Assembly (NCBI RefSeq): GCF_009296185.1
Contig: NZ_WBJR01000007.1
Location: 1 to 64,000, forward strand
Direction of reading: 5' to 3'
DNA length: 64,000 nucleotides
Origin: Hydrogenovibrio sp. JE_KL2
Lineage (GTDB): Bacteria; Pseudomonadota; Gammaproteobacteria; Thiomicrospirales; Thiomicrospiraceae
The notes beneath the pieces were generated by a model. It had not been told where the DNA came from. It saw only the letters and a list, made by a program, of their open reading frames with translations, and made no database searches. Position 1 is the stretch's first letter. Every line of letters begins with the position of its first letter. Below, piece after piece: positions 145-63,257 of the stretch. Both the position numbers and the translations under genes were made by a program.

Positions 145-152
145 TTTGTCTA

Positions 153-170
153 AAAACTGCCAGGTTGGGG
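153..170. repeat. Family B repeat arm (single, G4 end)
   Basis: AAAACTGCCAGGTTGGGG differs from the family consensus by one missing T. It lies between the tandem hairpin array and the stop codon of the gamma-glutamyltransferase gene. A partner arm in opposite orientation may lie left of the window, as at 24439-24557 where two B arms flank family A units. Confidence 0.8.
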
Positions 171-2909: not shown

Positions 2910-2930
2910 AAAATCTGCCAGGTTGGGGGG
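2910..2930. repeat. Family B repeat arm (single, G6 end)
   Basis: AAAATCTGCCAGG followed by TTGGGGGG is a near-perfect family B arm in a tandem (minus/minus) intergenic space, between the stop of the parvulin gene and the start of the DUF815 gene. No opposing arm is visible within 100 bp. Confidence 0.85.
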
Positions 2931-9168: not shown

Positions 9169-9190
9169 CCCCCCCAACCTGGCAGATTTT
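9169..9190. repeat. Family B repeat arm (C7 end)
   Basis: A C7 run followed by AACCTGGCAGATTTT sits between the HMG-CoA synthase stop and the stop codon of the decayed globin-sensor gene, a convergent junction. Only one arm is present. It lies 2 bp from where the pseudogene reading frame ends. Confidence 0.88.
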
Positions 9191-11951: not shown

Positions 11952-12578
11952 TTAGCTAGGGTCAACCCTTTGAATTAATTTCAAGTTATTACGTGCTTTT
12001 TCATTGAGAGGATCTTTTTGAATCGCTTGTTCAAAATAATCCTTAGCCTTCTTATATTGTTTTTGCAGTAGCGCACTGAACCCGAGATTGTTCAGTGCTA
12101 CCACTTCCAAAGTGCTTGAATCAGCATCTTCCAACCATTGATGGTAGATAGCCTCGGCTTCTTTGTAGTGATCTGTCATCAGTGCGAACTTGGCAAAACG
12201 CTGCTCATCACTTTTTGTCTTACCTGACTGTTTAATCACCTGTTGACTTGAAACATAAGCCATATCTAAATTTTGCTTAGCTTCATAGTAATCGGTGTAC
12301 AGTCGATAAACCTTAACGTCATCAGGTTTATATTTTTTAAGCTTATTCAGAAGTCTGTCTGCACGATCGAATTGCTTATTACGAACCTCCAATGCCACCA
12401 AGTCTAGTCCAAATTTGTATTCATCATCTTCAGACAAATTACTGGCTAAAGGTTCCGCCTGATCAATCGGTATTTCCGAAGGCTTTGGTTTACTTGGAAC
12501 GCTTGGAGATGATGAACACCCGGCAAGCCATACCAAAGTTAATCCAAGGCCAATATGTTTGATGCTAGACTTAATCAA
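11952..12578 (-). CDS. tadD: TadD-like TPR lipoprotein
   Basis: This 208-residue lipoprotein has lipobox WLAGC at about residue 21 and two to three tetratricopeptide-like repeats, including VVALNNLGFSALLQKQYKKA followed by KDYFEQAIQKDPLNEKARNNL. TadD proteins are pilotin-like factors needed for secretin assembly or stability at the outer membrane. The gene overlaps the end of the TadC gene by 4 bp and is followed directly by the TadG-like gene. Confidence 0.85.
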   Translation of the reverse strand: MIKSSIKHIGLGLTLVWLAGCSSSPSVPSKPKPSEIPIDQAEPLASNLSEDDEYKFGLDLVALEVRNKQFDRADRLLNKLKKYKPDDVKVYRLYTDYYEAKQNLDMAYVSSQQVIKQSGKTKSDEQRFAKFALMTDHYKEAEAIYHQWLEDADSSTLEVVALNNLGFSALLQKQYKKAKDYFEQAIQKDPLNEKARNNLKLIQRVDPS

Positions 12579-13468
12579 AAACTTCTCCCTAACATAACCA
12601 TCTTCTCGCCAATCATTAAAATAAAGTAAGGCAACATCAAAAATGGCAAAATTATAATGGCCATTTTTGCAGAGGTTTTTGCGGCCTTTTCTTCGATTTT
12701 ACTTTCACGCTGTTGATATAGTCGTCGAGAAAACTCATTTAGGGCAAGGCCAATCGGAGTTCCCAGTTTTTCGTTTTGCGCCAATACCTGAATTAACTCT
12801 TTCACTTCGTCGGAAGGATTTCTTTCTGCAAACTGCTTGAGAGCTTCCTGTCGTGGCACACCTATCTGAATTTGATCCAGCAAATATTGAAATTCGTAAC
12901 AGATTTCAGGATACATTTCGTCGAGTTCTTCAGTCACTCGTTTAAACGCGACAAGATAACTCAACCCGGCATTCATACAAATATTTGCCATATCGAGAAA
13001 ATCAGGTAATGCATCCTTAATTCGATTGAGGCGCATTTTACCCATTTCAATCAAAACTCTTTCTGGCAACAAGAGTGCAATAACCGGAAGAATCAAAGCA
13101 ATTTCTACTTTGGCGTTAAACCAGGTCCACAGGCCCAAACCAATTAATGCTATAAATAGGACAAAACCATACTTAATAAAAAAGTATGCACCAATGTGAT
13201 GATCATCTCTAAAGCCTGCCTTAATGAGCATGTCACGAGTTTTTTCCAACTCTTTTTTACCGGGAGACCCCAATACTCTACCGAGATTACACCACCAGCA
13301 AGCACGCTGCTCTTTCTGCTTTTCTTCTACATAACGGTTTAAGATGCCGACCCTAACTTTGAGATGCTCTATTTCCAGTTGCTGCTGCTGACTGGAGGAC
13401 AAACGTTTTGCCAACAAGAAAGTTGAAAGAAATATTAAACAGGCAACAAGAAACAATAACCCAAGCAT
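12575..13468 (-). CDS. tadC: Tad pilus inner-membrane platform protein TadC
   Basis: This GspF/T2SSF-family membrane protein is 297 residues long. It has an N-terminal transmembrane segment, a pair near residues 105-145 (FIKYGFVLFIALIGLGLW, then LILPVIALLLPE), the conserved cytoplasmic stretch ALPDFLDMANICMNAGLSY, and a C-terminal membrane helix (IIILPFLMLPYFILMIG). With TadB it forms the inner-membrane platform that couples the TadA ATPase to pilin extraction. The start overlaps the TadB stop by one base, indicating coupled translation. Confidence 0.92.
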   Translation of the reverse strand: MLGLLFLVACLIFLSTFLLAKRLSSSQQQQLEIEHLKVRVGILNRYVEEKQKEQRACWWCNLGRVLGSPGKKELEKTRDMLIKAGFRDDHHIGAYFFIKYGFVLFIALIGLGLWTWFNAKVEIALILPVIALLLPERVLIEMGKMRLNRIKDALPDFLDMANICMNAGLSYLVAFKRVTEELDEMYPEICYEFQYLLDQIQIGVPRQEALKQFAERNPSDEVKELIQVLAQNEKLGTPIGLALNEFSRRLYQQRESKIEEKAAKTSAKMAIIILPFLMLPYFILMIGEKMVMLGRSF

Positions 13469-14409
13469 TAGAAACGAATCCTTAACATTGTTCTCAAAAG
13501 CAGCGTTCCCACCCCAATGAGAGTAAGTGAAACGAACAACATCTTTTGCCCTGTCGGGTCTTCAAGAAAAAACTGCATGGATTTGTAATCAAATAAGTAT
13601 TTGTATGCCAAATAAAGTAGGGGCGCCGCTCCAATAAAAATTGCTGTAAATCTGGATTCTGCTGTCATGGTTCTCAACTTTGCCAAAAACATTTCCCTTC
13701 TGCGCATCAATTTAGACAATTCGGTTAAGACAGCAGCCAACTGCCCACCCGTTTCGCGTTGAATAATCAAAGTCACCACAAAAAACTGCGCTTCCTGAAG
13801 TTCAACTCTTGTTTGAAACTCTCTTAGAATTTCTCTCATATTGATCCCCAAAGACAGTTGTCGGGTGACCTCTTTCATTTCTTGCCCAAGCGGTGCAGAG
13901 AACTCATTGGCAATCATGTTCAAAGCACCGTCTATCCCATAACCGGAATGAAGTGCTCTTACCAATGCATCGAGCATTTCAGGAAATTGTTTTTTCATAT
14001 TAGTTTGGCGTTGTTGCTTCCTAAACAGAACATATACGGCAGGCAATAAAGGGGCCATAAAGGTGATTAGAATGAACTTTGGTTCCATTACATGAATGCG
14101 AGACACAATAAAATAACTACTGATTAACAGCAATAAAACTTGTATTCCTGCGAGCTGATAGAGAGTTTTTTGATCGTTAATACCCGCTTTCTTAAGCCAG
14201 TTTTTTAAACCTAAATAAGTTTTTGCACCACGAACTTCAAAAAGCGTTCGATAGCGTTTCTTTTGTTGCTCGGATTCAATGCCTGCTCGCCTTAATAAAC
14301 GCTCTAATTTATGAGCGTTATCGCGTTTTTTTTGCCATGACAATCCTGCTGCCAGAACAATAAATGGCACTAGGATGGCAACAATTAAAAACAGAAAACC
14401 AATATCCAC
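13468..14409 (-). CDS. tadB: Tad pilus inner-membrane platform protein TadB
   Basis: This 313-residue paralogue of TadC has an N-terminal transmembrane helix (IGFLFLIVAILVPFIVLAAG), a central pair of helices, and the T2SSF domain with QFPEMLDALVRALHSGYGI and QRETGGQLAAVLTELS. The C-terminus has two membrane helices. It pairs with TadC as the assembly platform. The gene starts 2 bp after the TadA stop. Confidence 0.93.
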   Translation of the reverse strand: MDIGFLFLIVAILVPFIVLAAGLSWQKKRDNAHKLERLLRRAGIESEQQKKRYRTLFEVRGAKTYLGLKNWLKKAGINDQKTLYQLAGIQVLLLLISSYFIVSRIHVMEPKFILITFMAPLLPAVYVLFRKQQRQTNMKKQFPEMLDALVRALHSGYGIDGALNMIANEFSAPLGQEMKEVTRQLSLGINMREILREFQTRVELQEAQFFVVTLIIQRETGGQLAAVLTELSKLMRRREMFLAKLRTMTAESRFTAIFIGAAPLLYLAYKYLFDYKSMQFFLEDPTGQKMLFVSLTLIGVGTLLLRTMLRIRF

Positions 14410-14411
14410 AA

Positions 14412-15818
14412 TCAGTACACTTCTTTTTTAAAGCTAAAGAGAGACTCCGGCATCGACACCCCAATGGCTTCACACTTCTTGCCGCAAGCTGGGCGCACAC
14501 CGGTCGCACTGAAGATGCCATACATACGATCATTAACAGGATCAATTTTGTTTTCAAACGTATAAATCTCCTGCAACACGACGTTTTCTTCTTCAACCCC
14601 AACCACTTCTGTAATCGACTCAACCCGTCTTTTCCCATCACGACTACGATTGACATAAAGAATGATATCGATGGCACTGGCAATCTGTTTACGAATGGAC
14701 GCTGCAGGAATATCGACACCACTCAAGTTAATCATTAACTCTAAACGCGCAATACAATCTCGCGGGCTGTTAGCATGAAGCGTTGCCAAAGAGCCATCAT
14801 GTCCTGTGTTCATCGCTTGAAGCATATCCAAAACTTCTCCGCCACGAACCTCCCCCAAAACAATACGATCAGGGCGCATACGCAACGCATTTTTCAACAA
14901 CTCGCGCTGGGACACTTCTCCCTGACCTTCAGCATTAGGTGGTCGGGTTTCCAAACGTACCACATGGTCTTGTTGCATACGCAACTCGGCACTATCCTCG
15001 ATGGTGACGGTTCTTTCATTCACGGGAATCAATCCGGAAAGCATGTTCAAAGTGGTGGTCTTACCTGAACCCGTTCCACCACATACTAAAATGTTCAATC
15101 CTGATTTAACGCCATAATCTAAAAACTGGTACATCTCTTCGGTCATCGTACCAAAGGCAATCATGTCCTTTGGACGTAGGTGCTGTTCGGGAAAACGTCT
15201 GATGGAAACGGAGATCCCGTCTACTGATAAAGGCGGAATAATGATATTAATACGCGACCCATCAGGAAGACGGGCATCGACTAACGGGGAAGATTCATCT
15301 ACACGGCGTCCAGTGCTATAAAGCATACGATCAACTTTGTTTCGAAGGTGCTCTTCACTGATGAAGGAGACATCCGTCAATTCAAGTTTTCCGCGACGCT
15401 CTACATAAATCTTGTTATAGCCATTAATGAGAATATCCGATACGGTTGAATCTGCCATTAAGGGTTCAATAGGCCCCAGCCCGTAAATTTCATCCAACAG
15501 CTCTAAGCCTAACTGACGTACTTCTAACTCTGTCAGTGGGTAACCCATTTCAGAAGCGACTTCGCGTACCAATTCTTCCAATCTAGGGCGTAGTTCATTA
15601 CGTGTTTCTTTACTGTCGGCTTCATAGAAAGCCTCATCTTCAGCAGCCAGTTTTTGACAACGCTCTTTAATCTCTAGAAAAGAGATATTTTGAACATTAC
15701 GCTTTTCAAGCGCCGGGGTATGCTCTACCTCATGTTTGGTAACCTCTTCAACAACAGGATTAGTAATCTCAGTTTGTCGTCCCTGCTCAACTTGTCGTAA
15801 CCTTTCTCGAATTCCCAT
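14412..15818 (-). CDS. tadA: Tad secretion ATPase TadA (CpaF family)
   Basis: This hexameric type II/IV secretion ATPase powers Flp pilus assembly. Walker A is CGGTGSGKTTTLNML. The Asp box and Walker B region are VTIEDSAELRM and MRPDRIVLGEVRGGE, and the His box is GHDGSLATLHANSP. The N-terminal regulatory domain and GLGPIEPLMADSTVSDILIN are typical of CpaF. The C-terminus beyond ESITEVVGVE is extended by about 50 residues, with PACGKKCEAIG, a Cys pair that could bind metal (inference). It sits between TadZ and TadB in the usual order. Confidence 0.95.
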   Translation of the reverse strand: MGIRERLRQVEQGRQTEITNPVVEEVTKHEVEHTPALEKRNVQNISFLEIKERCQKLAAEDEAFYEADSKETRNELRPRLEELVREVASEMGYPLTELEVRQLGLELLDEIYGLGPIEPLMADSTVSDILINGYNKIYVERRGKLELTDVSFISEEHLRNKVDRMLYSTGRRVDESSPLVDARLPDGSRINIIIPPLSVDGISVSIRRFPEQHLRPKDMIAFGTMTEEMYQFLDYGVKSGLNILVCGGTGSGKTTTLNMLSGLIPVNERTVTIEDSAELRMQQDHVVRLETRPPNAEGQGEVSQRELLKNALRMRPDRIVLGEVRGGEVLDMLQAMNTGHDGSLATLHANSPRDCIARLELMINLSGVDIPAASIRKQIASAIDIILYVNRSRDGKRRVESITEVVGVEEENVVLQEIYTFENKIDPVNDRMYGIFSATGVRPACGKKCEAIGVSMPESLFSFKKEVY

Positions 15819-15829
15819 ACAACAATCCT

Positions 15830-17092
15830 CTACACCGCTTCACCAACAGGCTTACTACGCATGCTCTTGAATCGCTGTGCCAACATTTTTGGAAGTCGAC
15901 TCAGTTTTTCCCAAGGTTGCTCCACAACAACTTTTTCTAGAGTCGAAGATGACACCTCCATTGTCACACTGCCGTTATGTAACATATTTGCTATACAAAT
16001 TAACTGTCTGTTGACTTTAGACTCAGGGTTAAACTCTTTTAACAAGACCCCTTGTTTCAAGGATTCATTAAAGCCGATGTAATCATTCGAGACTCTAGCA
16101 ACCTTATCTACCCCTAAAGCTTCAATCACTTCTTCCATCATTTCATCTTGATTAGAAGTGTCTCGATTGATAATTAACTTGAGTGAATCTTTGATATAAC
16201 CTAGTCGTTGAGTCAGACGAATCACTGCATTGACTGCTCTAATAGAAGACAGGGATGGCTCTGTCACCAAAACAATGTTATCTGACTCATCCAAACAACT
16301 CAGGGTTACATCAGACAAATCTGAAGAACAATCGATAATGACATGATCAAAGTATTTTCTTAGCGATTGAATAATCGTCTTAATCATATCCGCATTCAGA
16401 TTATCCAACTCTCCAATGTCGGATGGTAAAGGTAATAGATACAATCCTGATGATACGTGTTGAGACAAAGACTTATAAATCAGATTTTCATCAAAACGAT
16501 TCAAGTTGTAGATAAAGTCTGTAATGGTATAGAGACGATCATTCTCCATATTTAAATAGAGAGCAGTGTCTCCTAAAGGCATATTCAAATCGACCAACAC
16601 CGTTCTGTTTTCAGTCATACCTGATATTTGCGCTGCAATGTTGGTTGCCAAAGCCGTACAACCCACCCCACCTTTTAAGCTGAACAATGAGGAAACATTA
16701 CCGTTTTTACCTTTGCGTCGGCGCTCTTGCATATGCAAAATCGACAGAATATGAAAAATTTCATTCGGACACTCGATAAAGCCCTGTACCCCTTGATGGT
16801 TGGCTTCAATAATGAAATCTGCATCCTTCTCTTTCAACAAGACATAAAGAGTCACGCCCTTTGATAGGGTCAAAATCTGGTTGATTTTTTCAAGTGTCCA
16901 CTGCGCCTCGCCATCATATTCGATCATCACCAAGTCAACACTGTCTGGCCAAATATGCGGCAGTTCGTCCATACGCTCTATCTGGAACTTGGACATGATC
17001 GCAACTCGTACCGCTTCTTCAAGATCCTCATCACGTCCGATAAAGATCGCTTGTTTCAGGGCAATGGATGCCGTCGACAATTGCTGTGTCAT
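15830..17092 (-). CDS. tadZ: TadZ/CpaE localisation ATPase, altered Walker A
   Basis: This MinD/ParA-like protein places the Tad machine, usually at a pole. It has an N-terminal receiver-like domain (about residues 12-120) followed by the ATPase fold. The P-loop reads FSLKGGVGCTALATNIA: the usual Gly-Lys-Thr is Gly-Cys-Thr, so the main phosphate-binding Lys is missing while the signature Lys of KGG remains. HVIIDCSSDLSDVTLS corresponds to Walker B/switch II. Non-canonical P-loops are known in some TadZ/CpaE proteins, so loss of catalysis need not mean loss of function. The start overlaps the RcpA stop by 4 bp. Confidence 0.9.
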   Translation of the reverse strand: MTQQLSTASIALKQAIFIGRDEDLEEAVRVAIMSKFQIERMDELPHIWPDSVDLVMIEYDGEAQWTLEKINQILTLSKGVTLYVLLKEKDADFIIEANHQGVQGFIECPNEIFHILSILHMQERRRKGKNGNVSSLFSLKGGVGCTALATNIAAQISGMTENRTVLVDLNMPLGDTALYLNMENDRLYTITDFIYNLNRFDENLIYKSLSQHVSSGLYLLPLPSDIGELDNLNADMIKTIIQSLRKYFDHVIIDCSSDLSDVTLSCLDESDNIVLVTEPSLSSIRAVNAVIRLTQRLGYIKDSLKLIINRDTSNQDEMMEEVIEALGVDKVARVSNDYIGFNESLKQGVLLKEFNPESKVNRQLICIANMLHNGSVTMEVSSSTLEKVVVEQPWEKLSRLPKMLAQRFKSMRSKPVGEAV

Positions 17093-18648
17093 TCCACTGT
17101 CTCCAATCCAATTTTAACCATACTCTTCGGCAATGCAGACTCCCCTTCTGGAAGTACCTTAGCCACTTTCCCTAAAAAGAAGCCATCAAAATCACTGGCT
17201 CGGGTGACATTTTCTCCCGGTAATACTATTTTCCTACCCGCGCCAATCGGGTCAACCAAGGTTGGTGTCACCAGAATCGCCAACTCAGACTTATCTTCCT
17301 CATAGGAAGTCGAGCGGAAAAGTGTGCCTAGAATCGGAATATCCCCCAAAATAGGGACTTTGTTCACTTGGCTTCGTAAATTATCAGATAACAATCCGCC
17401 GATAATGAAGCTTTGACCTGGCGCTAGAGTAATGGTGGTATTCGCTTTACGCGATTTAAATCCTGGCACAATAACATTCCCCGTTTGCGCTCCAGCTGAT
17501 TCATCAATATTGCTGACCTCTGGCGCAACAGTTAACTGTATGTTTCCATCTTCGGTAATGATTGGGCTGAACCGTAAACGAATGCCATATTCCTTGTAGG
17601 TAACAGTAATAGTGTCTTGACTCTGAGCTGTTGGAATAGGCACCTCTCCTCCAACCAAAAAGGATGCGGTTTCACCTGATTGCACCACTAACTCAGGCTT
17701 GGCCAGGACTCGTGCCAAATTATGCCCTTCCAAAATAGATAAAACACCAAATATACTGCCATTTCGAGGATTGAACCCTAACTGAAATCCGTCAGGCTGA
17801 GGGAAGGCAATTTTCGCATCATTTGATGGCGAATTATTCAAACTGAACAAGGCCTGTGTTCCTAAATTTCCTGGCGGAAAAATTCCAAAACGGTCTTTTT
17901 TATCACGAATCGCCATACCGCTTCTGAAAGGGTTCCCCTTCGTCACTTCTGCGACGCGAACAGACAACTTGACCTGGTCTTTGCCAACAACCTTAATCAT
18001 ATTAACGACACTCAGTCCGAGTGAAGAAATTACCGCTTGAATACGCTTTTTACGCGCTTTGTGAGGCACAGTTCCCTTCAGTAAAACCATATAATTCCCA
18101 GCAATCGGGCGGATACTTAATTGCCCTGCCTTTTGAGTTTGCTGCAATATATCCTTGTTCTCACCGGCTTTAACCTTAAGTGTGGCATCATCGTCAATCT
18201 GATTACCAAGATTATCAAGCTCACGCCTGACCGATGAGGTTGAATCTATCCAAATATTTTTCAACTCAAAGCTAACCGTTTTATCAGGGTCAAGTTGAGA
18301 AATAAGCTCATTAACCGTTTTGGATATTTCCGCACGACGAGACGCATCTGGCGAAATATTCAGAACAATGTTATGTCCTTGATTGGGCGTATTTTGGTAC
18401 CAAACGATCACCTCTGTGCGACCTGCCTGCTTACCACTCACCAACAATTCTTTGGCGTTAAGTACTTTTAAATTCGCCAAATCCGGGTTGGCAATCAGTG
18501 CTCGCTTAATCGGCGAATCGAACTTGACGATAATGCTCTCTGTCGCCATTAAGCTATAGGATTTCTCCGCCGCCAGCAAAGGGAATGACAACATTGAAAG
18601 TAACAGCATACTCAACGTATTTGATAAAAGTTTATTCAATGCTTTCAT
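17089..18648 (-). CDS. rcpA: Tad outer-membrane secretin RcpA (CpaC family)
   Basis: This 519-residue secretin forms the outer-membrane channel for the Flp pilus. A signal peptide (to about residue 27, SFPLLAA) is followed by the pilus-formation N-terminal domain (ESIIVKFDSPIKRALIANPD, LLVSGKQAGRTEVIVW) and a BON-like segment (KVVGKDQVKLSVRVAEV). The secretin core follows, with LARVLAKPELVVQSGETASF, GGEVPIP, YGIRLRFSPI, GQSFIIGGLL and VPILGDIPILGTLFRS. All are standard and complete. It overlaps the RcpC stop and the TadZ start by 4 bp each. Confidence 0.95.
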   Translation of the reverse strand: MKALNKLLSNTLSMLLLSMLSFPLLAAEKSYSLMATESIIVKFDSPIKRALIANPDLANLKVLNAKELLVSGKQAGRTEVIVWYQNTPNQGHNIVLNISPDASRRAEISKTVNELISQLDPDKTVSFELKNIWIDSTSSVRRELDNLGNQIDDDATLKVKAGENKDILQQTQKAGQLSIRPIAGNYMVLLKGTVPHKARKKRIQAVISSLGLSVVNMIKVVGKDQVKLSVRVAEVTKGNPFRSGMAIRDKKDRFGIFPPGNLGTQALFSLNNSPSNDAKIAFPQPDGFQLGFNPRNGSIFGVLSILEGHNLARVLAKPELVVQSGETASFLVGGEVPIPTAQSQDTITVTYKEYGIRLRFSPIITEDGNIQLTVAPEVSNIDESAGAQTGNVIVPGFKSRKANTTITLAPGQSFIIGGLLSDNLRSQVNKVPILGDIPILGTLFRSTSYEEDKSELAILVTPTLVDPIGAGRKIVLPGENVTRASDFDGFFLGKVAKVLPEGESALPKSMVKIGLETVE

Positions 18649-19529
18649 TTTGTAATTACCTCTTGAACATCACCACCCTGCATAATTTCAATCACGTCTC
18701 GCTTGGTCTTAGGTTTAAACTTAGGTGGGCGACCTTTACCTTGCTCCATCACTTTTAGGTTGACCCCATTAGTATCGACCAAATTTGTGTCGGAAGGATT
18801 CCGCAACATCAAGTGAATTGCGCCAACATTCATTGCCAAAGCCAATTGCTCTGCCTGCTTGGTCGTCACTTCCAACGCAATCATAGATTTTTTAGTCATT
18901 TTTTCAGCTTCAGCTTCTTTAGAAACAGCAGAACTATTCGCGCCAGGAACGATCATACGGTTGGCTTGTCCAATCGACAGTACAGGAATATTCTGCAAAA
19001 TCGTTCGACTGATCATTTTTTTACCATCAACACTCTGAAAAACACTGATGATGTCAACATGGTCTCCTGGATTCAAAATCCCAAGCAGTCCAGTGTTCGC
19101 ATCAACCGGAAGTCGAATAGCGCGCTCACCTTTAGACAGCAAGGCTTCAACACTTTGTTTTTGCACTGACTTGTCAGAACCGATTTTTTTGTCGATTATC
19201 CACTCGCCAGCATAAATAGTTTGAAAAGCAACATGCCCCACCGCATCCTGTGGATTGGTGATTACGCCATTTACCACAACACCGTCTGTTGGCACACTTA
19301 AAACTTTAAGATCGTCAACATCGATTTTTTCTCCACGATAAATATCTCGATTGGCCACAACAACAGACAGTAGTTTTGGCTTTTGAACAATGGTGACTGT
19401 TTTGACTTGGGCATGAGCCTTGGCATCTTCTACACGGTTCTGCACATAACCATAAACAAACACCACTGCCAAAATTGCAGACAGGGCAGCAGAGCCGTAA
19501 ATCAACCAATCACTGGTTTTCAGCTTCAT
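18645..19529 (-). CDS. rcpC: Tad pilus protein RcpC (CpaB family)
   Basis: This 294-residue protein has one N-terminal transmembrane helix (about residues 9-27) and a SAF domain (VVANRDIYRGEKIDVDDLKV, AIRLPVDANTGLLGILNPGD, VDIISVF). CpaB/RcpC proteins are periplasmic partners of the secretin and may contact peptidoglycan. The C-terminus is basic and unremarkable. It is the third gene after flp and tadE. Confidence 0.92.
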   Translation of the reverse strand: MKLKTSDWLIYGSAALSAILAVVFVYGYVQNRVEDAKAHAQVKTVTIVQKPKLLSVVVANRDIYRGEKIDVDDLKVLSVPTDGVVVNGVITNPQDAVGHVAFQTIYAGEWIIDKKIGSDKSVQKQSVEALLSKGERAIRLPVDANTGLLGILNPGDHVDIISVFQSVDGKKMISRTILQNIPVLSIGQANRMIVPGANSSAVSKEAEAEKMTKKSMIALEVTTKQAEQLALAMNVGAIHLMLRNPSDTNLVDTNGVNLKVMEQGKGRPPKFKPKTKRDVIEIMQGGDVQEVITK

Positions 19530-24438: not shown

Positions 24439-24557
24439 CCCCCAACCTGGTAGATTTTTCACAAATGAGTAACTCACCACCCGAAGGGTAAGACGAGAAA
24501 CACCGAACTCGCCGCCCGCAGGGGTAAGGCGAAAAAATCTGCCAGGTTGGGGGGGGG
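24439..24557. repeat. Composite repeat: B arm, two A units, inverted B arm
   Basis: CCCCCAACCTGGTAGATTTT at 24439 and an inverted arm at 24532-24557 ending in G9 flank two 36-bp family A units in reverse orientation (24465-24500 and 24501-24536). The A stems vary: one arm pair reads CTCGTC with GGTGAG, kept by G-U pairs in the RNA. It occupies the convergent junction of mvaD and sspB. Confidence 0.85.
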
Positions 24558-27497: not shown

Positions 27498-27760
27498 GGG
27501 CACCTCAAAAAACCACCAATGAGATTCTGCGAGACTCAAAGGCCACGTCTTCTAGGCGTGCGTTGCCGATCTTAGTCATTCTAAGGTCAAGACGCACAAC
27601 AACGAAGAAGCGGCCTTTAAGCCTCGCCCGAAGGGGCTTAGCCAAGTTTGACAGCCCAGCGTTGCGAAGTCTTGCAAGGTCTAGACATTGCTTCAACTTC
27701 ACGCCTTGTTCTGTCAAACTTGGCGTTGCCAGAATCCATCGGAGGTTCTTCGAGGTGCCC
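27498..27760. mobile_element. 263-bp MITE-like element with about 30-bp terminal inverted repeats
   Basis: The ends read GGGCACCTC-AA-AACC inward and mirror each other over about 30 bp with a few mismatches. AAT flanks both sides, a possible 3-bp target duplication. The interior contains nested inverted repeats: CCAAGTTTGACAG with CTGTCAAACTTGG, and AAAGGCC with GGCCTTT. There is no credible ORF. It occupies most of the 443-bp gap between efp and epmB. Confidence 0.65.
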
Positions 27761-27792: not shown

Positions 27793-28752
27793 ATGATTAT
27801 TCAACGATTAGACGAACTTGCCGCCCAGATAGACATTCCGCTGGAAATCCTGCAACGAAAAACGCTCGACTCTGATTTCAAGCTGAAAGTGCCGGTGCAT
27901 TTCGCGCAACAAATCGAAAAAGGCAATCTTAACGATCCATTGCTCCGCCAAATACTGCCGAGCATTGAAGAAGCGCAAACTGCCGAAGGCTTTTCTCAAG
28001 ATCCGGTTGGCGATTTAAACGCCAACCCAACCGAAAGTCTGTTGCATAAATATGAGGGCAGAGCCTTGCTGATTACCAGCCCGCAGTGCGACATCCACTG
28101 CCGTTACTGCTTTCGCCGCCACTTTCCTTATGAGCAGGCGAAAAAACGCCATTGGCAACAGGCACTTGAGCACTTGGCGGCGGATACTTCCATCCATGAG
28201 ATTATATTGAGTGGCGGCGATCCACTCACTTTATCTGAAGCCGGATTGATTGAACTCCTTCATCAACTGGAACAAATTCCGCATTTGGAAACCTTGCGCC
28301 TCCACAGCCGCACACCGGTGGTCGCCCCCGAACGCGCCAACATGACCAATTGGCTGGTAGCACTCAAGGCTTCTCGTTTCAATAAGGTATTGGTCGTGCA
28401 TTGCAATCACCCTAACGAGTTGAGTGATGAAACACATCAAACATTCCAGCACTATCGAGAGGCTGGGGTCACACTCCTTAACCAATCGGTTCTGCTAAAA
28501 GGCGTCAATGATTCTGCCGACACCTTAAAGCAATTAAGCAAAAAGCTTTTTTCACAAGGCGTATTACCTTATTATTGTCATCTACTGGATAGGGTCGAAG
28601 GTGCCGCGCATTTTGAAGTGGACCCCCCCCCAACCTGGCAGATTTTCGAAACGCTCCGCAAAGAATTACCGGGGTATCTTGTGCCGAAACTGGTGCGGGA
28701 AATCGCCGGAGAGCCCTATAAGACGCCAATATATGAAAATACCGATACATGA
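27793..28752 (+). CDS. epmB: EF-P-(R)-beta-lysine formation enzyme EpmB (radical SAM)
   Basis: This lysine 2,3-aminomutase-family enzyme makes (R)-beta-lysine for EF-P. The SAM cluster is CDIHCRYC (Cys99, 103, 106) in the EpmB-specific context RYCFRRHFPY. GGDPL, LRLHSRTPVV, LLDRVEGAAHF and GYLVPKLVREIAGEP complete the fold. Residues 278-285 (PPPTWQIF) are encoded by a family B repeat that includes a run of nine C at 28623-28631. Compared from memory with the E. coli protein, the spacing between AHF and GYLVP is unchanged, so sequence was replaced without net insertion. A one-base slip there would remove the last 35 residues. Confidence 0.93.
   Translation: MIIQRLDELAAQIDIPLEILQRKTLDSDFKLKVPVHFAQQIEKGNLNDPLLRQILPSIEEAQTAEGFSQDPVGDLNANPTESLLHKYEGRALLITSPQCDIHCRYCFRRHFPYEQAKKRHWQQALEHLAADTSIHEIILSGGDPLTLSEAGLIELLHQLEQIPHLETLRLHSRTPVVAPERANMTNWLVALKASRFNKVLVVHCNHPNELSDETHQTFQHYREAGVTLLNQSVLLKGVNDSADTLKQLSKKLFSQGVLPYYCHLLDRVEGAAHFEVDPPPTWQIFETLRKELPGYLVPKLVREIAGEPYKTPIYENTDT
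28623..28646. repeat. Family B repeat arm inside epmB (C9 tract)
   Basis: C9 followed by AACCTGGCAGATTTT is an exact family B arm lying in frame in the 3' part of epmB. It carries the longest C run of any copy in the window. Confidence 0.9.
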
Positions 28753-32648: not shown

Positions 32649-32688
32649 CCCCCAACCTGGTAGATTTTAAATATCTGCCAGGTTGGGG
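32649..32688. repeat. Family B inverted pair (short loop)
   Basis: CCCCCAACCTGGTAGATTTT faces ATCTGCCAGGTTGGGG with a loop of only a few bases, a near-perfect hairpin. It lies between the convergent glycosyltransferase and lptG genes. Confidence 0.92.
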
Positions 32689-40496: not shown

Positions 40497-40550
40497 CCCC
40501 CAACCTGGTAGATTTTTGGTAACTTACCCGAAAAATCTGCCAGGTTGGGG
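40497..40550. repeat. Family B inverted pair
   Basis: CCCCCAACCTGGTAGATTTT and AAAATCTGCCAGGTTGGGG face each other around a 15-nt loop, between the convergent M14 peptidase and L,D-transpeptidase genes. The left arm begins 7 bp after the peptidase stop. Confidence 0.92.
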
Positions 40551-46225: not shown

Positions 46226-46268
46226 CCCCAACCTGGTAGATTTTTGCATAAAATCTACCAGGTTGGGG
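46226..46268. repeat. Family B inverted pair (C4/G4)
   Basis: CCCCAACCTGGTAGATTTT faces AAAATCTACCAGGTTGGGG around a 5-nt loop. Both arms carry the TAG/CTA variant, so the stem is perfectly matched. It lies between the convergent aminotransferase and nudE genes. Confidence 0.93.
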
Positions 46269-48758: not shown

Positions 48759-48792
48759 GGTTGATGCCTCATCCTGTTTCTACACAAAAATA

Positions 48793-48812
48793 CCCAGCCT
48801 GGTAAATTTTTA
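48793..48812. repeat. Diverged family B arm
   Basis: CCCAGCCTGGTAAATTTTTA keeps most of the consensus with at least two substitutions and a C3 end. It lies between the Sel1-like gene and the small exported protein gene. Confidence 0.6.
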
Positions 48813-48905: not shown

Positions 48906-49382
48906 TTAGAAGTAGTTTTTATAACCTTTATAACTGGTAATTGCGGTTATATCTGTCTTAGTAATAACCATATTGAAATAAGCATTTCGTTCCTGTTGTG
49001 TCGTCATACGAATGTTTAACCCGGTGAGTTTTCTATAGCGCTGTATATTTTTCTCAAAAGCAGCTCGATACTCTTTTTTTTCTTCTGGTGTCATATAGAC
49101 CATAGACAAATCTGCTTTGAGATATTCTTTCTTATCCTGTAATAGCGGGTATTTACTGCGTATACCTGCTGTCTCTAAATAACCCTTTTCATAGCGTTGG
49201 ATTTTTTGATCAGAAAAAGTACTCAAAGCTTGCTCTAAATAGCTATCAACCATTTCAGCCGTAACAGGGGGTGAACTTTCGGCACTTGCTTGATGGCTTG
49301 AAAGCAACAAAAAAATAAAAACGAATGTTGCTCCCCCAACCTGGTAGATTTTTGATGTTTTTAAAATAGCAAAACAATCCAT
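48906..49382 (-). CDS. Small exported protein of unknown function
   Basis: From ATG at 49382 (AGGA-like site AAAGGAATTTTA just before it) the product has 158 residues. It starts with MDCFAILKTSKIYQVGGATF, followed by the hydrophobic core VFIFLLLSS and a cleavage site near QASAES. The mature part is charged and helical (DSYLEQALSTFSDQKIQRYE, MTPEEKKEYRAAFEKNIQRY), with no domain I recognise. Part of the signal peptide (KIYQVGG) is encoded by a family B repeat at 49333-49353. The gene starts 11 bp from the end of the methyltransferase gene on the same strand. Confidence 0.6.
   Translation of the reverse strand: MDCFAILKTSKIYQVGGATFVFIFLLLSSHQASAESSPPVTAEMVDSYLEQALSTFSDQKIQRYEKGYLETAGIRSKYPLLQDKKEYLKADLSMVYMTPEEKKEYRAAFEKNIQRYRKLTGLNIRMTTQQERNAYFNMVITKTDITAITSYKGYKNYF
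49333..49353. repeat. Family B repeat arm inside a signal-peptide coding region
   Basis: CCCCCAACCTGGTAGATTTT is an exact arm lying in frame. On the minus strand it encodes KIYQVGG just before the hydrophobic core of the signal peptide. Confidence 0.88.
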
Positions 49383-55348: not shown

Positions 55349-55402
55349 CCCCCCAACCTGGCAGATTTTCCTGAAAAATATTCAAAATCTACCAGGTTGG
55401 GG
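55349..55402. repeat. Family B inverted pair (C6/G4)
   Basis: A C6-AACCTGGCAGATTTT arm faces AAAATCTACCAGGTTGGGG around a 14-nt loop. It lies 15 bp after the nrdB stop, in the convergent junction with the anti-sigma gene. Confidence 0.92.
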
Positions 55403-62858: not shown

Positions 62859-63257
62859 TTACTGCATTTTATAACCGCATTTACCTTCTTGTGCTTGATC
62901 TTTGTCTTTCTTCATAGATGCGCCACAGTTTCCGTGTCCATCCTTCTTCATTGACGCACCACAGTTACCTTGGCCGTCCTTCTTCATTGACGCACCACAA
63001 TTACCTTGGCCGTCCTTCTTCATTGACGAACCACAGTTACCTTGGCCGTCCTTCTTCATTGACGAACCACAGTTACCTTGGCCGTCCTTCTTCATTGACG
63101 AACCACAGTTACCTTGCGCTGCTGCAACTTGCTGATAACCACCTTCCAAGGTCTTAAATTCAAACGGGTTTTCCCCAGCCATTGCCGAACCAGATACAGC
63201 CACTGCTGCTGATGCGCCAGCCAACTTTAAAAAATCTCTTCGTGAGCATTTAGACAT
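62859..63257 (-). CDS. Tat-exported Cys-repeat precursor of an MNIO-modified peptide
   Basis: This 132-residue protein starts with a twin-arginine signal: SRRDFLKLAGASAAVAVSG, cleaved near AMAGEN. A short leader (NPFEFKTLEGGYQQVAAAQ) is followed by six 12-residue repeats of the type GNCGSSMKKDGQ and a final EGKCGYKM. That gives seven Cys in near-identical NCG or KCG sites. EGKCG is the motif modified by MNIO enzymes in HvfA/BufA-type peptides. Start 63257 is preferred because it gives the Tat signal; an extension to 63341 adds a non-signal stretch. Probably a periplasmic metal (copper) binder after modification, by analogy only. Confidence 0.8.
   Translation of the reverse strand: MSKCSRRDFLKLAGASAAVAVSGSAMAGENPFEFKTLEGGYQQVAAAQGNCGSSMKKDGQGNCGSSMKKDGQGNCGSSMKKDGQGNCGASMKKDGQGNCGASMKKDGHGNCGASMKKDKDQAQEGKCGYKMQ
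62908..63123. repeat. Six 36-bp coding tandem repeats in the precursor gene
   Basis: Units begin at 62908, 62944, 62980, 63016, 63052 and 63088. Middle copies are almost identical (63016 and 63052 exact, 62980 and 62944 one or two changes). The copy encoding the most C-terminal repeat (62908) is the most diverged. Ser/Ala alternates at one position (GSS versus GAS). Confidence 0.93.

Follow-up and report, generated by a model that had tools for sequence, protein, structure and literature searches.

Sites of a candidate uptake-sequence-like motif and their change of spelling in Hydrogenovibrio, seen from a conserved copy in epmB

Sequence-specific DNA uptake words are described in the portions of the literature consulted for two families, Neisseriaceae and Pasteurellaceae. 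A motif present in hundreds of copies in Hydrogenovibrio sp. JE_KL2 (G000, the genome under study) is probably a third, previously undescribed uptake-sequence-like system, since its origin by substitution, strong consensus, AT tract, dialects and inverted pairs match reported features of uptake sequences. One copy lies in frame in epmB and, as the alignments read, is an old site of this genome-wide motif that was not pasted in. It seems fairly likely that self-DNA-recognition words have a third lineage, independent of the other two, in this family of bacteria. That lineage would have five or more spellings, sites rewritten almost completely in place between close species, and loci such as epmB where the same codons show several spellings side by side.

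The motif, its spellings and its place among genes

The 19-mer pattern CCCCAACCTGGYAGATTTT matches 396 sites with at most two mismatches in the 2.44-Mb G000 genome, and the reversed pattern matches none. The motif consists of a 10-base core, CCCAACCTGG, followed by an AT tract, together CAGATTTT. Finer counts come from a sample of 464 kb, about a fifth of the genome, made up of the window (the whole 64-kb stretch of DNA analyzed here; Table 1) and 400 kb of contig C1. Roughly 17-19 positions of the motif are nearly fixed in this sample, and its 77 sites share no sequence beyond positions 0-18, apart from A or C being mildly favored immediately ahead of them. Exact copies of the 10-mer outnumber those with one mismatch in all four genomes examined, in samples of 460-464 kb (80/22 in G000 and 71/34, 68/20 and 75/38 in the others), and a shuffled-word control gives 0-3 exact copies. 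Motif density, from genome-wide counts in G000 and of the spelling CCAGGCCTGG, is about 0.13-0.36 per kb. The two strands are balanced, with 30 plus and 32 minus sites at up to two mismatches in 400 kb of sequence; a strand bias along contig C1 that appeared in a site list was rejected as an effect of listing, as the sequence itself carries both strands equally.

A T-rich tract follows the core on its 3' side in G000, G010, G003, G008 and G007. It is partly built into the G000, G010 and G003 sites, which were collected by a pattern containing TTTT. T content also served to orient the palindromic words of G008 and G031; for G031 the tract is not established. Unoriented 10-mers also carry it: GGCAGATTTT occurs 45 times in G000 against 5.7 expected, and TGGCTGTTTT 29 times in G008 against 6.4. 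In the 17 sites of G007, collected by core alone, positions +13 to +17 are 82-100 percent T. Positions +26 to +28 lean weakly toward A/T in G000, and +21 to +23 carry T in the 17 G007 sites, which is no more than a hint of a second AT tract.

The motif is not spelled alike in all relatives. Enrichment of k-mers with no motif assumed (G000, G003, G008, G001, G009, G006, G002, G007 and G031) returned as top 10-mer CCCAACCTGG in G000, CCCAGCCTGG in G003, CCAGGCCTGG in the pieces of G008, G001, G009, G006 and G002, and CCAGGGGTGG in G007, where the opposite strand reads CCACCCCTGG and then CGATTTTT. For G004 and G005 the spelling, again CCAGGCCTGG, is taken from its genome-wide count. This word occurs 367-677 times per genome in 7 of the 11 genus genomes and 0, 0, 0 and 1 times in G000, G003, G007 and G010. 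Among the 23 other family genomes it reaches 263-747 copies in eight, 27 and 37 in two more, and 0-8 in the remainder, which makes 263-747 copies in 15 of the 34 genomes of the taxonomic family. The 21 genomes from outside the family hold at most 35, with 0-13 copies of the reversed control there and 0-2 inside the family. A different word, around ACCGGCCGGTA, is abundant in G031 (L159-L161) and is possibly a further dialect; CCGGCCGGTA is found there 35 times in 60 kb against an expectation of 0.6. No clear motif emerged by k-mer enrichment from 80 kb each of G012, G018 and G016, and eleven further family genomes with no high CCAGGCCTGG count (G011, G014, G017, G020, G021, G023, G024, G025, G027, G028 and G029) were left out of the spelling sampling. 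Four of the five spellings have CCTGG in common. One exact 18-mer of the motif was also seen in each of five viral contigs of 14-45 kb (L180-L184).

Most copies lie between genes, although genes cover 88-89 percent of the samples: 61/80 sites are intergenic in G000, 52/71 in G010, 51/68 in G003 and 40/75 in G008. The G000 sample holds 11 inverted pairs, in which both arrangements of the arms occur. Convergent genes border 38 of the 276 intergenic regions, and 16 of the 22 paired sites fall between such genes; the same placement applies to 10/16 paired sites in G010 and 10/14 in G003.

Could the motif act inside the cell? The intergenic bias and the concentration of inverted pairs between convergent genes would suit the site of a chromosome-organizing or regulatory protein, or a terminator element, in each case with co-evolved specificity. 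Such a role is possible but unlikely. The excess of exact over near-exact copies is unlike ordinary binding sites, as argued in the excerpted text of PMC1626085, the in-gene copies of G000 lie on either strand of the gene (8 same, 11 opposite), the number of nearly fixed positions would exceed what such a protein needs, and terminators can do without a single spelling.

The inventory of uptake genes bears on the same alternative, which gains from the fact that a PilQ-like secretin of the longer type was not found in G000, G003 or G010. Among the 11 genus genomes searched, a protein of this type of about 700 aa is present in six, at 183-195 bits and thus under the curated cut-off of 284; G004 and G007 also lack a match. 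Matches to comEC and comEA occur in all 11 (comEA of G007 under the curated cut-off), which lends the uptake reading weak support because they are also found in E. coli and in genomes such as G012 and G018, where the search for a motif gave none. The window carries Tad/Flp-type pilus genes on the minus strand (12578-19529), comprising RcpC/CpaB, a secretin, a CpaE-like ATPase, a TadA-like ATPase and two T2SSF proteins, and translations from G000 include MSHA-like pilus genes. A prepilin cluster lies at about 195-198 kb of contig C8 in G000. FimT/GspH was considered as a receptor and rejected, with GspH matches in 0 of 11 genus genomes.

Table 1. Coordinates in the window of epmB, its C tract and the motif copies
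Feature	Position	Strand	Remarks
epmB, EF-P beta-lysylation radical-SAM enzyme	27793-28752	+	319 aa, intact; TIGR03821 398.3 bits, cut-off 369.3
C9 tract in epmB	28623-28631	+	first C is third base of GAC, then CCC CCC CC(A)
Uptake-sequence-like motif in epmB	28628-28646	+	exact 19-mer CCCCAACCTGGCAGATTTT, in frame
Motif copy	152-170	-	1 mismatch
Motif copy	2910-2928	-	exact
Motif copy	9172-9190	+	exact
Motif copy	24440-24458	+	inverted-pair arm, convergent genes; 36-bp-type repeat between arms
Motif copy	24534-24552	-	second arm of 24440 pair; nine C precede on own strand
Motif copy	32650-32668	+	inverted-pair arm, convergent genes
Motif copy	32670-32688	-	second arm of 32650 pair, 1 mismatch
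Motif copy	40498-40516	+	inverted-pair arm, convergent genes
Motif copy	40532-40550	-	second arm of 40498 pair
Motif copy	46226-46244	+	inverted-pair arm, convergent genes
Motif copy	46250-46268	-	second arm of 46226 pair
Diverged copy	48792-48810	+	3 mismatches to pattern; G003-type core CCCAGCCTGG
Motif copy	49334-49352	+	exact, within called ORF of opposite strand
Motif copy	55351-55369	+	inverted-pair arm, convergent genes
Motif copy	55384-55402	-	second arm of 55351 pair

The diverged copy at 48792 is the only exact CCCAGCCTGG core in the 464-kb sample. The window also holds a 36-bp unit, TTTCTCGCCTTACCCCTTCGGGCGGCGAGTGCTTCG, in four tandem copies (1-144), with a diverged copy at 24486-24536 between the arms of the 24440/24534 pair; a stretch similar to the unit lies 3' of the motif at position 767136 of contig C1. 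A repeat with a period of 36 nt, its copies up to 89 percent alike, occupies 62868-63152.

Site positions between species and the change of spelling in place

Positions were compared over the 464-kb sample on genes called by a simple ORF caller and paired as reciprocal best hits, counting intergenic regions of at least 30 bases whose flanking genes are adjacent orthologs in both genomes. Between G000 and G010 the motif is present in both genomes in 32 regions and in neither in 170, with 0 discordant (202 regions); between G000 and G003 the figures are 24, 145 and 1 (170 regions). Genes behave alike, with 16 sharing the motif, 350 lacking it in both and 1 discordant for G010, and 12, 337 and 5 for G003. 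Some stability of position is also seen against G008, which uses CCAGGCCTGG: 5 intergenic regions carry the motif in both genomes, 9 + 6 are discordant and 100 have it in neither (p=0.003), and for genes the counts are 6, 7 + 18 and 248 (p=2.5e-4). The lower figures show real turnover of sites at this larger distance: of the 13 genes with a G000 site, 7 have none in G008, and of the 14 such intergenic regions, 9 have none.

At shared positions the spelling itself has been exchanged. BLAST aligned 54 of 78 G000 sites to G010 and 46 of 78 to G003. With the first, sixth and twelfth positions omitted, identity within the core is 0.987 to G010, against 0.854 in the flanks, and 0.931 to G003, against 0.671. 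The sixth core base is identical between G000 and G003 in a fraction of 0.15: of the 46 aligned sites, 39 have A in G000 and G in G003, and 7 have A in both, some of these seven being places without the motif in G003. Among the sites found in the G003 sample, 73 of 74 have G at this base. The lone A-spelled site of the 74 is the one in comEC, a gene that carries a motif site both in G000 (C1 407904, L031) and in G003 (C1 937683, L112). Genome-wide, three exact A-form 19-mers occur in G003 among the matches listed. Of the coding sites of G000, 11 of 13 compared with G008 and 15 of 17 compared with G003 align ungapped over the motif, and the homologous codons hold the other genome's spelling in 4/13 and 12/17, respectively.

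These comparisons weigh against the view that a transposase dispersed the motif as a mobile repeat of REP/MITE type and that part of epmB was replaced by one of the copies. The hundreds of near-identical copies and the inverted pairs fit such an element, and G000 does have one match to a Y1 transposase, with motif copies on both sides. However, no such match was found in the motif-bearing G010 and G003, while G001, G002 and G007 have Y1 matches without the G000 spelling. The RAYT-like gene itself (L051, 1408-2275) has its own GGGGTCAGACTC-type flanking ends, as judged by eye, and lies between two motif copies. Empty sites number 0 in 202 intergenic regions against G010, with a discordance of 1 in 170 against G003; the copies share nothing beyond the 19-mer, and the sixth base was switched in place. 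In the sample these results already contradict a mobile origin, which is very improbable.

The epmB site

The gene epmB adjoins efp and epmA. The codons at its motif, GAC CCC CCC CCA ACC TGG CAG ATT TTC, encode D P P P T W Q I F; AACCTGGCAGATTTT follows directly 3' of the C9 tract, and the 24 bases at 28623-28646 recur exactly, as the reverse complement, at 24534-24557. A first-pass annotation had described an exact repeat arm lying in frame, a run of nine C in the coding sequence and an unchanged length around the segment. The descriptions hold, the last of them within the genus: EpmB is intact, the arm and run are where it placed them, and the alignment of epmB from the 11 genus genomes (G000 included) has no indel around the site.

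Its interpretation fared differently. The segment had been taken as a repeat captured in epmB by replacement of host sequence. The alignment points the other way, with the site homologous throughout the genus and the homologous codons holding, exactly, the genome's own genome-wide spelling in 10 of the 11 genomes. This is CCCAACCTGG in G000 and G010, CCCAGCCTGG in G003, CCAGGGGTGG in G007 and CCAGGCCTGG in G001, G002, G004, G006, G008 and G009, and G005 has 9 of 10 bases of its own spelling. G010, the genome closest to G000, reads ACA ACC CCA ACC TGG CAG ATT TTC, G003 reads GAT ACC CCA GCC TGG CAG ATT TTT, seven other genus genomes have CAG GCC TGG and G007 has CAG GGG TGG. None of the five spellings is found at this site in 14 genomes examined from outside the genus. 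In an epmB tree of 17 rows G000 and G010 are joined with support of 99/97, and both with G003 at 100/99; 5 of 14 inner branches fall below 80, leaving the order of the remaining lineages unsure. The motif spellings are congruent with this phylogeny. A homologous site in the sister species, and other spellings elsewhere in the genus, argue that the segment was not captured.

The length of the C tract has a shorter history. Nine C are private to G000 among the 11 genus genomes, with C4 in G010 and G003 and shorter runs elsewhere, so the tract is, as read from the alignment, a recent change. Three base differences separate ACA ACC CCA in G010 from CCC CCC CCA in G000. The 464-kb sample contains two C9 runs, both at motif copies (epmB and the intergenic copy at 24534), so the motif accounts for the epmB tract, and selection on epmB need not be invoked. 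Comparison of G000 with G010 at 54 aligned sites shows C runs next to the motif that vary in length by 1-2 bases at six, each of them intergenic, which makes length mutability plausible; with one genome per species in the set, these figures speak to differences between species and not within them. The annotation expected a base gained or lost simply to cut the last 35 residues. Translated in silico, a C8 tract lengthens the protein from the wild-type 319 aa to 330 aa and a C10 tract shortens it to 309 aa, each with a replaced C-terminus. We think that three prolines in an enzyme serving polyproline translation are a coincidence of a C-rich motif. That a captured repeat serves as a slippage-prone switch for EF-P beta-lysylation is hardly credible. 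The private C9, the variable C runs and the altered C-terminus of a frameshifted EpmB speak for it; against it, the site is common to the genus and free of indels, and the second C9 run is intergenic.

The gap between efp and epmB (27500-27760) holds a long but imperfect inverted repeat (GCACCTC ... GAGGTGC), noticed by eye; Rfam has no match to it at the gathering threshold.

Proposed mechanism and known systems

How might such sites be maintained and respelled? If the motif is an uptake-sequence-like system, a surface receptor on a type-IV-type pilus would bind it on outside DNA, and conspecific fragments bearing it would be preferentially taken up and recombined. Uptake bias together with selection for receptor fit would keep copies perfect, and sites would build up via point mutation where this is harmless. 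A shift in receptor specificity would then lead to sites being rewritten in place. The epmB C run may have reached nine as a by-product, by the three further base differences in G000.

No description of such a motif in these bacteria was found among the matches listed in the open-access PMC literature; of the papers listed for Hydrogenovibrio and natural transformation, none has that subject by title. A third family, if true, would offer an independent test of how uptake words originate and spread, and of how the spelling of hundreds of genomic sites shifts in concert with a receptor. The close relatives G000, G010 and G003 differ by a dialect switch of a single base, and nearly all sampled sites have been respelled where they stand; because the switch has been caught there, the question of dialect change becomes directly testable. 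The motif would also be a practical tag for transforming this group.

REP/RAYT elements resemble the motif in their hundreds of short, dispersed and often paired copies. The motif differs from them in that, of the three genomes with G000/G003-type spellings, two have no Y1 match; it also shows no empty sites against G010, and in coding copies it mostly substitutes for sequence and does not insert.

The DUS of Neisseriaceae are, in the excerpted text of PMC3630211, divided into several species-specific dialects, occur as terminator-associated inverted pairs and have CTG in all dialects. The motif likewise has dialects and inverted pairs, the pairs lying mostly between convergent genes, and CTG recalls the CCTGG of four of five spellings, an agreement that may be coincidence. 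The core is otherwise unrelated to DUS, which have a known receptor in ComP and, according to the part of PMC1626085 consulted, no flanking motif. The density of the motif lies about 3-8 times under the roughly 1 per kb quoted for USS and DUS.

The USS of Pasteurellaceae have an unrelated core and belong to a different family of bacteria, and the motif here is a candidate uptake sequence. Yet they offer several likenesses. USS cores are followed by an AT tract, as in eHin-USS AAAGTGCGGTCAATTTT and eApl-USS AACAAGCGGTCAAATTT (PMC12616744, in the portion available), and the motif, CCCAACCTGGCAGATTTT, likewise combines a core of about 10 bases with an AT tract. What distinguishes the two USS dialects lies in the first half of the core, and the same is true of the spellings here. 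USS are also reported, in the same consulted part of PMC1626085, to originate by substitution and not insertion and to have more perfect than singly mismatched copies, and the motif resembles them in both respects.
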